Source: Thermodesulfatator sp. | GTDB taxonomy: Bacteria; Desulfobacterota; Thermodesulfobacteria; Thermodesulfobacteriales; Thermodesulfobacteriaceae | Assembly (NCBI GenBank): GCA_027064165.1 | Contig: JAMOQE010000055.1 | Location: 1-35,305, forward strand | Reading direction: 5' to 3' | DNA: 35,305 nucleotides | Shown here: piece after piece, positions 7,078-11,718 of the stretch | Numbering within the stretch: position 1 is the first letter of the stretch | Layout of the letters: each line of letters starts with the position of its first letter | Notes under the pieces: generated by a model | What the model saw: only the letters and a program-made list of their open reading frames with translations | Database searches by the model: none | What the model was told of the DNA's origin: nothing | Program-made: the position numbers and the translations under genes

Positions 7078-8511
7078 ATGGAGTTTGAAGCAGTAATAGG
7101 GCTTGAGGTTCATGCTCAGCTTACTACAAAAAGTAAAATGTTTTGCTCCTGTTCCACAGAGTTTGGTAAACCTCCAAACACCAACATCTGTCCTGTTTGC
7201 ACTGGCCAGCCCGGGGTGCTTCCAGTAATAAACAAAAGAGCTGTAGAATACGCGCTAAGGCTTGCTCTTGCCTTAGGGTGCAAAATCAATCTTACCTCCA
7301 TCATGGCAAGAAAAAACTACTTTTATCCAGACCTTCCCAAGGGATATCAAATTTCTCAATACGAGCTTCCCATTGCAGAAGGAGGAGCTATAGAAATTGA
7401 GGTAAATGGGAAGAAAAAGAAGATTGGTTTGGTAAGAATTCACATGGAAGAGGATGCCGGCAAACTTGTTCACGACGAACACAAGCCCGTATCTTATGTA
7501 GATTTTAATAGAGCTGGGGTTCCACTCCTTGAAATTGTAAGCAAGCCCGAGATTTCTTCCCCGGAAGAAGCAGTGGCCTATCTTAAAACTTTAAGAAGAA
7601 TAGTTCGCTATCTTGGCATTTGTGATGGAAACATGGAAGAAGGAAGCCTGCGTTGCGATGCCAATGTCTCAGTAAGACCAAGGGGAAGTGAGAAGCTTGG
7701 CACAAAAGTGGAGCTAAAAAATATGAATTCTTTTAAACATGTGGAAAAAGCCCTTGCCTATGAAATAAAAAGGCAGATAGGGCTTCTTCTTGAGGGAAAA
7801 GAAGTGGTGCAGGAAACAAGGCTTTATGACGAAGCCACTCAAACAACACATCCCATGAGAGGAAAAGAAGAGGCTCATGACTATTGTTATTTTCCTGATC
7901 CGGATTTGATTGAGATAAAAGTTCCTGAAGAGTGGATAGAACAAATTACCAGGCAATTGCCTGAGCTTCCGTCTCAAAAAAAAGAAAGATTTTTAAGAGA
8001 ATATAGCCTTACGGAAAAGGAAGTAGAAATATTGATAGAAGAAAAAGACTTTGCAGACTTTTTTGAAAACACTGTTAGAGTTTATGGGAATGCCAAGCCT
8101 GTTGCCAACTTTTTGCTTACTGAAGTATTAAGGTATTTAAATCGCGATCATAAGTCCATAGGTGAAACCAAGCTTACTCCAGAATTAATAGCGGAACTTT
8201 TAACCTTGGTTGACAAAGGAATTATATCCATAACTATAGCCAAGCAGCAGGTTTTTCCGGAGGTTTATGAAAAAGGAGTTTCTCCGAAAAAATTGGTTGA
8301 AGAAAAAGGGCTTGTTCAGGAAAGCTCTGAAGACAAGCTTCTTGCAGTGTGTAAAGAGGTGCTTGAGGAAAATCCCAAAGAGGTAGAAAAGTATAAAGCC
8401 GGGAAGAAAGGGCTTCTTGGCTTTTTTGTTGGGCAGGTTATGAAAAAGACAAAAGGAAAGGCAAACCCCAAAGTGGTAAACCAGCTTTTTCAAAAGCTCC
8501 TTGAGGAGTAA
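7078..8511 (+). CDS. gatB: aspartyl/glutamyl-tRNA(Asn/Gln) amidotransferase subunit B
   Basis: Kinase/transamidation subunit of the GatCAB complex, which converts Glu-tRNA(Gln) and/or Asp-tRNA(Asn) to the amidated forms. The N-terminal signature IGLEVHAQL is followed by a zinc site of C23, C25, C38 and C41 (CSC and CPVC), then YPDLPKGYQISQ and the ammonia-tunnel region. The C-terminus is the helical GatB/YqeY tRNA-binding domain. The 477-residue length is normal. GTGAGGT lies about five bases before the ATG. gatA and gatC are not in the window, so the complex is encoded at separate loci. It is the first gene of a plus-strand run with mtnA three bases after its stop. Confidence 0.97.
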   Translation: MEFEAVIGLEVHAQLTTKSKMFCSCSTEFGKPPNTNICPVCTGQPGVLPVINKRAVEYALRLALALGCKINLTSIMARKNYFYPDLPKGYQISQYELPIAEGGAIEIEVNGKKKKIGLVRIHMEEDAGKLVHDEHKPVSYVDFNRAGVPLLEIVSKPEISSPEEAVAYLKTLRRIVRYLGICDGNMEEGSLRCDANVSVRPRGSEKLGTKVELKNMNSFKHVEKALAYEIKRQIGLLLEGKEVVQETRLYDEATQTTHPMRGKEEAHDYCYFPDPDLIEIKVPEEWIEQITRQLPELPSQKKERFLREYSLTEKEVEILIEEKDFADFFENTVRVYGNAKPVANFLLTEVLRYLNRDHKSIGETKLTPELIAELLTLVDKGIISITIAKQQVFPEVYEKGVSPKKLVEEKGLVQESSEDKLLAVCKEVLEENPKEVEKYKAGKKGLLGFFVGQVMKKTKGKANPKVVNQLFQKLLEE

Positions 8512-8514
8512 GAG

Positions 8515-9606
8515 ATGAAACTTAAGGCTCCGGGAATTTTACCCACAAGGGCAGATGTAATAACTGCCTGGGTATGGCACGAGGATGCCCTTTATTTGCT
8601 TGATCAAAGGGAGCTTCCTCACAGGGAAAAATATATCAGATGCGAAACCTGTGGTCAGGTCAAAAAAGCTATAAAAGACATGGTGGTAAGAGGTGCTCCG
8701 GCAATTGGAATTACTGCAGCTATTGGGTTTTATTTGGGAATAAGGCGGTTTTTAATAAAAAGCAAGGGTACAAGAAGCGCTCTCAAAGCACAGGCAAAAA
8801 GAGTGTTTCAGGTGCTCTCTTCTGCAAGGCCAACCGCAGTAAATCTCTTCTGGGCTTTAAAAAGAATGCAAAAGGTGCTTGAATCTCTTGAATTTTCGCC
8901 ATCTAAGGAAACGATAGAAGCCCTTAAAAAAGAAGCTCTGAAAATCTGGCAGGAGGATGTGGATGCAAATTTGAAAATGGCTGAGTTTGGGGCTGAAATC
9001 CTGCCTCAGGGAAAAGTCCTCACCCATTGCAACACTGGAGCTTTAGCTACAGGTGGCTATGGCACAGCTCTTGGAGTAATAAGAAAGGCTTATGAGCTGG
9101 GGAAGGTTAAAAGTGTGTGGGTGGATGAAACTCGCCCCTTTTTGCAAGGGGCAAGGCTTACTGCCTGGGAACTTTCAAAGGTTGAAATTCCTTATCAGAT
9201 AATAGTTGATAGTTCCGCAGGTTTTCTTATGCAAAAAGGAGAGGTGCAGGCAGTCATAGTAGGAGCTGATAGAATTGCGGCAAATGGAGATACAGCAAAC
9301 AAAATAGGCACCTATTCTCTTGCTGTGCTCTGTAAGGAGCACAACATTCCTTTTTTTGTAGCAGCACCCTCTTCTACTTTTGATCTTTCCATTAAAAGTG
9401 GTAAAGAAATTCCTATTGAAGAGAGGGATGAAAGGGAAGTGCTTTTTTGTGGTGGAAAAAGAATAGCTCCGAAAACTGCTTCTGCCCTAAATCTTGCCTT
9501 TGATGTAACTCCTGCTGAATATATTTCAGCTTTTATTACTGAGAAAGGGGTAATAAAACCACCATTTGAGAAACAGATACCTCAGGTTTTAGAAAATGAA
9601 AGTTAA
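8515..9606 (+). CDS. mtnA: methylthioribose-1-phosphate isomerase
   Basis: Aldose-ketose isomerase of the eIF2B-like fold that converts 5-methylthioribose-1-phosphate to methylthioribulose-1-phosphate in methionine salvage. Signatures are RGAPAIG (59-65), the catalytic Cys C172 in HCNTGALATGG, DETRPFLQGARLT, and VGADRIAANGDTANKIGT with the catalytic Asp. The 363-residue length is slightly longer than usual (about 345). The ribosome site GAGGAG overlaps the end of gatB, with a three-base gap between genes. Its end overlaps rex by 11 bases. Other salvage genes are not in the window, so the sugar phosphate may feed a shortened pathway or a related 5-deoxypentose salvage. Confidence 0.93.
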   Translation: MKLKAPGILPTRADVITAWVWHEDALYLLDQRELPHREKYIRCETCGQVKKAIKDMVVRGAPAIGITAAIGFYLGIRRFLIKSKGTRSALKAQAKRVFQVLSSARPTAVNLFWALKRMQKVLESLEFSPSKETIEALKKEALKIWQEDVDANLKMAEFGAEILPQGKVLTHCNTGALATGGYGTALGVIRKAYELGKVKSVWVDETRPFLQGARLTAWELSKVEIPYQIIVDSSAGFLMQKGEVQAVIVGADRIAANGDTANKIGTYSLAVLCKEHNIPFFVAAPSSTFDLSIKSGKEIPIEERDEREVLFCGGKRIAPKTASALNLAFDVTPAEYISAFITEKGVIKPPFEKQIPQVLENES

Positions 9607-10231
9607 AGAAATCCCGGAAAATACACTACACCGCCTTGTCATTTATCTCAAAGTTCTGGAAGATCTTGAGAAAAAGCGAATTGAGTCCATAAGTTCTGAG
9701 GAACTCGCAAGAAGATGTGGAGTAAATTCTGCTCAACTGAGAAAAGACCTGACCTTTGTAGGACATCTGGGAACAAAAGGTGTAGGGTATAATGTAAGAA
9801 GTCTGAAATATAGTCTTAAAAATTTTCTTGGAAGATCTCAGGAGTGGAATCTTGTTCTGGGAGGATTAAGTCCTCTTGGGATTTTTCTTCTTGAAAACAA
9901 GGAGCTTCAGAAAGAAGGTTTTTACTTTATGGCAGCTTTTGACCACAGGGAAGAAAACATTGCCAAAATTTATAACGGAGTTTCAGTGTATAGCCTTGAC
10001 CAAATCTCTTATGTTTTTAAGGCTATAAAAGTGGACATAGGCGTAATCACGGCAGAGGAAAATCCAGAAATTTATTTGGAAGCCTTTTTAAATCAAGGGC
10101 TTAAAGCTATTTTAAATTTAAGCAAAGCTCCTCTTTTTGTAAAAGACACTTCTGTAAAAATTGAAAACTTTTCTTTTCCCTTGGCCCTAACAAAGCTTTC
10201 TTATTTTTTAAAGGATAGTGACAAAGGTTAA
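9596..10231 (+). CDS. rex: redox-sensing transcriptional repressor Rex
   Basis: NADH/NAD-responsive DNA-binding repressor. The N-terminal winged helix has ISSEELARRCGV, then SAQLRKDLTFVG and GTKGVGYNV, which are diagnostic of Rex. The C-terminal Rossmann domain begins at about residue 85 and keeps the AAFD aspartate (D116). The usual GxGNLG loop reads GLSPLG (G90-G95), with Ser in place of the second glycine, so nucleotide affinity may differ. The 211-residue length is normal. The start overlaps the mtnA end by 11 bases and has no clear ribosome site, which suggests coupling to mtnA translation. Its targets are not known; I found no full palindromic Rex operator in the window. Confidence 0.9.
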   Translation: MKVKEIPENTLHRLVIYLKVLEDLEKKRIESISSEELARRCGVNSAQLRKDLTFVGHLGTKGVGYNVRSLKYSLKNFLGRSQEWNLVLGGLSPLGIFLLENKELQKEGFYFMAAFDHREENIAKIYNGVSVYSLDQISYVFKAIKVDIGVITAEENPEIYLEAFLNQGLKAILNLSKAPLFVKDTSVKIENFSFPLALTKLSYFLKDSDKG

Positions 10232-10252: not shown

Positions 10253-10699
10253 ATGAAAGTAAAAGTCTGGAAAAAGGACAAAAGGGCAAGGCTTCCTGAG
10301 AAGTCAACAGATGGCTCCATTGGTTATGATATTTTTGCTTTAGAAGAAGCTGTGATAAAGCCCTTTGAGCTTAAGTTTATAAGAACCGGGCTTGTAATAA
10401 AGACTGAGCCGCCTTATGGGCTTTTTATTTTCCCCAGGTCCTCACTTTTCAAGAGAAAAAAGCTTATTATGCCAAATTCTGCGGGTATAATTGACTTTGA
10501 TTATTGTGGAGAAGAAGACGAGGTAAAGATTCCTGTGGTAAATCTGGGTAAAGAAGAAGCGGTGGTAAAGGCAGGAGAAAAGATTGCCCAGGCAGTTTTT
10601 ATAAAGGTGGGGGCTCCTGAGATAGAAGAGGTGGAGGAGCCTCCGTCTTCTGCCTCAAGGGGAGGCTTTGGTTCAACAGGTGGGTATGAATCTAAATAA
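10253..10699 (+). CDS. dut: dUTP diphosphatase
   Basis: Trimeric dUTPase that hydrolyses dUTP to dUMP, keeping uracil out of DNA and supplying the substrate of thymidylate synthase. All five motifs are present in order: GYDIFA, PRSSL, GIIDFDYCGE, KIAQAVF and the C-terminal P-loop-like arm SRGGFGSTG. The 148-residue length is standard for the trimeric family. AGAGGTTATTTT precedes the ATG. The gene overlaps the start of thyX by 14 bases, pairing dUMP production with dUMP methylation. Confidence 0.95.
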   Translation: MKVKVWKKDKRARLPEKSTDGSIGYDIFALEEAVIKPFELKFIRTGLVIKTEPPYGLFIFPRSSLFKRKKLIMPNSAGIIDFDYCGEEDEVKIPVVNLGKEEAVVKAGEKIAQAVFIKVGAPEIEEVEEPPSSASRGGFGSTGGYESK

Positions 10700-11633
10700 A
10701 TTAAAAACCAAGCAAAAATCCCTTATATCCCTTGTTTTTAAACAGGCAGATTGGAAATTTTTGCCTTTTTTTCTTCCCTTCAGTTACTTAGGGGCAAGGG
10801 TGTGCTATTCTGCAAAGCATCCGCTTCTGCTTTTTGAAGAAGAAAAGTTTCAAAATCAGGAAAAGTTTAAAGAATTTTTAATGCGCCTTAAAAAAGCAGG
10901 ACACCACAGTGTGTTTGCTCACACTCCGATTTTCGTAAGTTTAAAGGGGCTTTCTATTGAAGAAAAATTTAACCTGGCAACCACTTATTTTAAAGTTTTC
11001 TGGGATGAAGAAAAAGGGCTCGCTCTTTTTAATTTAAGACACTTTTCGGAAAACCTCTCTGAGGAAGAATTTTCAAAGCTTATAAGCTGTGAAATAACAC
11101 TTTCTTTTTTAAAAGTAATTTTTTACAGAAATTGGAAAAAGGTGTTTGAGGGCTTTTTTGAGGAATTTCCTTTAAAAGGGCTTGAAAAAAAGTCTGAAAT
11201 ATTTACTGCCCCTGAAGTAATTATATTAAAAGTGGAAAAAGAGCATCCTTTTGAGTGGATTGGAGTAATTGTGCATGGTTTTTCAAGGATTTTCAGTCAT
11301 CAGTTTGTAAGACACACCTGGCTCAATTTTAATCAGAGGTCTCATCGCTATACTTTTGTGGATAGTTTTGTACTTCCAGAGTCTTTTCCAGAAGACTTAA
11401 TTGAGTTATATTTAAAACAGATAAAAAGTGGAATGGAAGTATATAGAAAGTTTTCTGAGAGGGTTCATCGGGAGAGTTTGAGGTTTGTGCTTCCACAGGG
11501 AGTTTCTACTACTTTGCTTGCAACAGGTCCATTAATGGTGTGGGAGGATTTTGTTAGCAAAAGGGCTATACCTCAGGCACAGGGAGAGATAAGGAAGCTT
11601 GCTTTTATTTTGAAGGATGAGATGGGGCTGTAG
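10686..11633 (+). CDS. thyX: divergent flavin-dependent thymidylate synthase (ThyX family)
   Basis: FAD-dependent methylation of dUMP to dTMP with methylene-THF. Family blocks include AGHHSVFAHTPIF, a signature RHTWLNFNQRSHRY (about residues 209-222) in place of the usual RHR-x7-S pattern, and the C-terminal block RFVLPQG followed by AQGEIRKLA. The 315 residues are longer than common ThyX (about 220-250), from extra sequence between the conserved blocks. The signature has Thr for the third residue and Gln for the usual Glu, so activity is likely but should not be assumed. A TTG at 10668 is only two bases from an AGG run, whereas the ATG at 10686 follows AGGTGGG and fits dut-thyX coupling. The TAG stop at 11631-11633 is inside the tRNA-Arg gene. 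Confidence 0.82.
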   Translation: MNLNKLKTKQKSLISLVFKQADWKFLPFFLPFSYLGARVCYSAKHPLLLFEEEKFQNQEKFKEFLMRLKKAGHHSVFAHTPIFVSLKGLSIEEKFNLATTYFKVFWDEEKGLALFNLRHFSENLSEEEFSKLISCEITLSFLKVIFYRNWKKVFEGFFEEFPLKGLEKKSEIFTAPEVIILKVEKEHPFEWIGVIVHGFSRIFSHQFVRHTWLNFNQRSHRYTFVDSFVLPESFPEDLIELYLKQIKSGMEVYRKFSERVHRESLRFVLPQGVSTTLLATGPLMVWEDFVSKRAIPQAQGEIRKLAFILKDEMGL

Positions 11634-11696
11634 CTCAGAGGACAGAGCACTGGCCTCCGGAGCCAGGTGTCGGGGGTTCAAATCCCCCCAGCCCCG
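11624..11696 (+). tRNA. tRNA-Arg(CCG)
   Basis: Full cloverleaf: acceptor GGGGCTG pairs with CAGCCCC, D-stem GCTC with GAGC, anticodon stem CTGGC with GCCAG around loop CTCCGGA (anticodon CCG, reading the CGG codon), and T-stem GGGGG with CCCCC around TTCAAAT. Discriminator base G is at 11696; CCA is not encoded. The first ten bases overlap the 3' end of thyX on the same strand, including its stop codon. The glycan island begins immediately after it. Confidence 0.97.
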
Positions 11697-11718
11697 TTTT
11701 TAATTCGGGCTTGTTTTT
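11690..11718 (+). terminator. possible terminator using the tRNA 3' end
   Basis: AGCCCCG at the tRNA 3' end can pair with CGGGCT at 11706-11711 (one bulged C, loop TTTTTAATT), followed by TGTTTTT. This could end transcription after tRNA-Arg, but the stem competes with the tRNA acceptor arm and is imperfect. Confidence 0.3.

Follow-up and report, generated by a model that had tools for sequence, protein, structure and literature searches.

In Escherichia coli, the protein gene secG and the downstream tRNA gene leuU share one transcript, from which RNase P releases the tRNA. The mRNA there keeps a stop codon upstream of the tRNA, whereas the thyX gene considered here has its stop inside the tRNA. 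Mitochondrial 'ss-tRNAs', reportedly described by Faure and Barthelemy in 2018, are said to carry overlapping stop codons at conserved positions, with a stop at tRNA positions 8–10 used by the upstream gene. The thyX case differs in its setting, a bacterial chromosome with RNase P and tmRNA systems of its own. In the tRNA punctuation of animal mitochondria, a coding region and the tRNA that it abuts share one transcript, and once RNase P has cut, the mRNA has no encoded stop (a passage of PMC9674279 that cites Ojala et al. 1981). According to the same passage, the last encoded letters of these mRNAs are U or UA, which poly(A) extends to a UAA codon (PMC9674279). Likewise, thyX runs straight into a tRNA, and cutting would leave its mRNA without a stop; unlike the mitochondrial genes, it has a full UAG, placed inside a bacterial tRNA in a cell with tmRNA. 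Poly(A) would not repair the cut message: adding A residues to its predicted end, GAG-AU, gives AUA AAA and no stop, as it does in a second genome with this junction, Caldimicrobium sp. SKYB6 (G002). The literature searched, with subscription journals mostly outside it, held no direct precedent for a 3′ overlap between a bacterial coding region and a tRNA.

The thyX stop codon lies within tRNA-Arg(CCG)

The window, by which we mean the whole 35,305-nt stretch of DNA analysed, is one contig (C55) of the Thermodesulfobacterium-like draft genome of a heat-loving bacterium. The draft has 1.49 Mb in 81 contigs, is 99.7% complete, and belongs to the family that includes Thermodesulfobacterium and Caldimicrobium. 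ARAGORN calls a single tRNA in the window, tRNA-Arg(CCG) at 11623–11697 on the forward strand, and Rfam places the edges of the tRNA body one base further in (Table 1). The cloverleaf is predicted both for the tRNA alone and inside the thyX transcript. The final codons of thyX are GAT GAG ATG GGG CTG TAG, in which the G of ATG is the first base of the tRNA, giving a same-strand overlap of 10 nt; thyX has no stop codon outside the tRNA. The other two frames contain no stop within the tRNA and meet their first at +79 and +107. Rfam, ARAGORN and an ORF with a Thy1 match thus confirm the tRNA start and the position of the thyX TAG on the same strand, as an earlier note on this DNA had given them. 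That note had also reasoned that RNase P would strip the stop codon and leave a non-stop thyX message, and the geometry bears this out for a cut at the expected site. In this genome the tRNA is the only one found with anticodon CCG, the remaining arginine tRNAs being ACG, TCT and CCT. Decoding of CGG should therefore rely on it.

Table 1. Features of the thyX–tRNA-Arg(CCG) locus, in window coordinates
Feature	Position	Strand	Basis or remark
gatB	7078-8511	+	Pfam and NCBIfam
mtnA	8515-9606	+	Pfam and NCBIfam
rex	9596-10231	+	Pfam and NCBIfam
dut	10253-10699	+	Pfam and NCBIfam
thyX, FAD-dependent thymidylate synthase, 315 aa (probable start)	10686..11633	+	Pfam Thy1; PDB ThyX chains; start and length from relatives
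Expected RNase P cut	11623..11624	+	Inferred from tRNA 5′ end; thyX mRNA would end GAG-AU
tRNA-Arg(CCG)	11624..11696	+	Rfam RF00005, 69.9 bits; ARAGORN; without encoded CCA
TAG common to thyX (stop) and tRNA-Arg (U8-A9-G10)	11631..11633	+	Sequence; same in G002

The product of the upstream ORF is recognisably ThyX. It matches Pfam Thy1 (PF02511) with 100.7 bits against a cut-off of 24.8, and it matches ThyX chains in the PDB; the NCBIfam model TIGR02170 scores 74.6 bits, under its cut-off of 87.9. The ThyX signature motif is RHRxxSxNxxSxR. The corresponding region in the window (11302–11346), RHTWLNFNQRSHR, retains RH, N, S and R but departs from the signature at two positions, and it aligns with RHRHFSYSQLSQR in a PDB ThyX. 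Residues 1 to ~190 lie outside the Thy1 profile match, and this divergent branch, with its variant signature and unmatched N-terminal part, is common to the family. Translation probably starts at ATG 10686, TTG 10668 being merely the mechanical start of the ORF. The resulting 315 aa compare with 312–325 aa in relatives (n = 22 with a full-length prediction); judged by these predicted lengths, the protein sequence is not lost, and the overlap took the place of a spacer and a stop codon. The search of this genome for ThyA found none, and ThyX is apparently its sole thymidylate synthase.

Gene context and distribution of the overlap

thyX is the last protein gene of a tightly packed unit. Along gatB-mtnA-rex-dut-thyX, all on a single strand, the spacings are 3, −11, 21 and −14 nt. 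All 14 of the named relatives that are closest (L031-L044) keep the order mtnA-rex-dut-thyX, and most of the family keeps the dut-thyX pair. thyX starts within the 3′ end of dut (10686–10699), and the final dut codons (GGxGG), which are also kept in relatives, are probably the thyX ribosome binding site.

A thyX gene followed on the same strand by tRNA-Arg(CCG) occurs in 11 genomes of three genera. Two of the 11, the present genome and Caldimicrobium sp. SKYB6, have the identical overlap, with the thyX stop formed by U8-A9-G10. The other nine have a separate thyX stop, 10–28 nt before the tRNA in six genomes and about 115, 407 and 754 nt before it in three. The two overlapping genomes fall on different branches of the ThyX tree, a topology that cannot choose between two gains and one older gain followed by losses.

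This recurrence bears on two alternative explanations. The first is a sequencing or assembly artefact that took away a true stop or spacer. The window does come from a draft assembly in many pieces, but the same junction stands in a separate genome of another genus and the ThyX frame reaches its expected length; we rejected sequencing error, and consider an artefact of any kind extremely improbable. The second is a selected regulatory device, in which maturation of the tRNA by RNase P sets the number of ThyX chains made per message. The presence of an identical overlap in two genera whose ThyX sequences branch separately would suit such a device, as would the apparent status of ThyX as sole thymidylate synthase, and recurrence is the one piece of positive evidence for a possible selected role. 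Against it, nine relatives combine the same gene order with a separate stop, and tRNAs in these genomes hold the ends of other, unrelated coding regions as well (see below). Moreover, a stop comes early in this tRNA in one frame only, so gene ends that collapsed more than once would arrive at an identical geometry by chance. We consider a selected device quite unlikely. A more elaborate form, in which the tRNA would serve the mRNA of an essential enzyme as a self-limiting 3′ end, with its maturation limiting the rounds of thyX translation, tmRNA rescue as routine and dTMP supply coupled to tRNA maturation, strikes us as a similarly long shot.

Co-transcription or a promoter within thyX

The earlier note had left two alternatives, transcription of the tRNA together with thyX or from a promoter of its own within thyX. 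To compare tRNA genes, we scored the best TTGACA-(16–18)-TATAAT match immediately upstream of each tRNA in four genomes against shuffled sequence. Leading tRNAs (n = 146) have a mean score of 9.6 (shuffled, 8.1), and those internal to clusters (n = 30) a mean of 6.9 (shuffled, 6.9). tRNA-Arg(CCG) of the window scores like the cluster-internal ones, 7 of 12 against a shuffled mean of 7.3–7.5, although such matching is crude and the lower A+T content of coding DNA depresses scores by itself. Its counterpart in Caldimicrobium sp. SKYB6 scores 7 or 8, by the exact edge chosen, and these two overlapping genes have the lowest scores among the 11 thyX-linked tRNA genes. A weak promoter-like match further upstream, at 11385–11412, is at chance level. 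Scores of 7 or less are found for 11 of the 146 leading tRNAs, several of which lie close behind other genes; examples are tRNA-Sec, behind the SRP RNA, and two tRNAs behind a short coding region, tRNA-Ala(CGC) and tRNA-Val(CAC). The tRNA-Sec gene follows the small SRP RNA by 24 nt on the same strand (L094 2164-2380; G000:C36) with no recognisable promoter between them, and the two are probably one transcript.

If the tRNA did have its own promoter within the 3′ part of thyX, and thyX transcription seldom ran on into the tRNA, the overlap would just save space and the two genes would hardly interfere. A TTGACA/TATAAT-like promoter does stand just upstream of most lone tRNAs in the four genomes, and relatives with a gap, such as G013, show TATAAT adjoining the thyX stop; hot-growing bacteria may also have promoters that the scan does not see. 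Yet the best match here does not rise above shuffled sequence, the two overlapping genes score lowest of their kind, and a terminator is impossible between thyX and the tRNA. We therefore hold a separate promoter to be rather unlikely. The case still qualifies the earlier claim that tRNA processing and thyX expression can interfere 'either way': an internal promoter with little thyX read-through would entail little interference, so that this wording was too strong. Between the two alternatives, co-transcription of thyX and tRNA-Arg(CCG) with release by RNase P is most likely. Three observations favour it: the close spacing of the genes upstream, an overlap into which no terminator would fit, and a promoter score at the level of shuffled sequence, lower than that of most lone tRNAs in these genomes. 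The low score is support for co-transcription and not proof of it.

Processing, rescue and a model for the junction

The genome encodes tmRNA, SmpB and rnpA. Neither rnpB nor the protein-only HARP was found in this draft assembly; across 30 genomes of the family, rnpB was found in 23 and HARP in 25. Nothing resembling rnpB was found beside tRNA-Leu(TAG) in this genome, tRNA-Leu(TAG) being its neighbour in G013, and two other genomes (G018, G029) likewise have no rnpB match. HARPs are recorded from Thermodesulfobacteria in a review, which adds that most HARP-bearing bacteria outside the Aquificae also have rnpA and rnpB (PMC10941002). The missing rnpB and HARP are probably assembly gaps. A host that lacks RNase P and makes leaderless tRNAs was rejected as the main reading, since rnpA is present and several clustered tRNAs need 5′ cutting.

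Our reading of the overlap is the ordinary one: in a compact genome, the end of a gene has collapsed onto the stop triplet of a tRNA, and the arrangement is tolerated. With loss of the spacer, thyX would have come to end on the amber triplet built into most tRNAs, and thyX and tRNA-Arg(CCG) would be the final two cistrons of one transcript. Termination at this UAG and release of the tRNA should be mutually exclusive on any one RNA molecule. The leading ribosomes, following RNA polymerase closely, would presumably reach the UAG before the tRNA folds or is cut and so make normal ThyX. Once the tRNA has folded, RNase P would cut between 11623 and 11624, freeing the tRNA and leaving a non-stop thyX mRNA, on which later ribosomes would stall until cleared by tmRNA and SmpB; tmRNA deals with non-stop messages in bacteria (PMC3985003). 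Low demand for ThyX and dispensable last residues would probably make the arrangement tolerable, and the yield of ThyX per transcript may be capped. Taken as a whole, this chain of events seems to us moderately probable. Actual interference between tRNA processing and thyX expression is what we infer from it, and an effect on ThyX output is possible.

If processing occurs as expected, production of a needed tRNA would routinely turn the mRNA of the only thymidylate synthase detected in this bacterium into a non-stop message. The junction would then be a natural conflict between an mRNA and a tRNA, with routine dependence on tmRNA. Since U8-A9-G10 reads as amber in one frame of most tRNAs, an upstream gene may lose its own stop without damage to its protein. 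Such overlaps can also escape annotation: Prokka by default rejects coding regions that overlap RNA genes, and pipelines of this kind would omit thyX from such genomes.

Coding regions that end in tRNAs

Overlap of a coding end with a tRNA is rare but recurrent in the four genomes surveyed, with the stop supplied by the tRNA consensus. About 115 of their 176 tRNAs have a stop triplet at positions 8–10. The triplet itself is thus an ordinary consensus feature, and its use by a coding region is the unusual part. Upstream coding regions end in a tRNA in four cases among the 176 tRNAs (about 2%), two of them thyX. ORFs passing through tRNA clusters (86–104 aa; L065, L084, L088, L123, L125) were set aside as frames open by chance. 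We also asked whether an extended acceptor stem might slow RNase P; such a stem is not distinctive, as at least five extra pairs occur in 12 of 175 tRNAs and no extra pair in two other overlapping tRNAs.

The third case lies in the same genome as the window. A 290-aa coiled-coil ORF with a weak DUF3782 match ends in a TAG whose G is G1 of tRNA-Ser(CGA) (G000:C23:41293-41385; L097), and RNase P would likewise take away part of the stop of this ORF. In the fourth case, an ORF whose product, at least 487 aa long, looks like a GGDEF-EAL protein overlaps tRNA-Leu(CAG) by 18 nt (G009:C1, tRNA 870861-870944; L180), and the TAG of this ORF occupies D-loop positions 16–18 of the tRNA.
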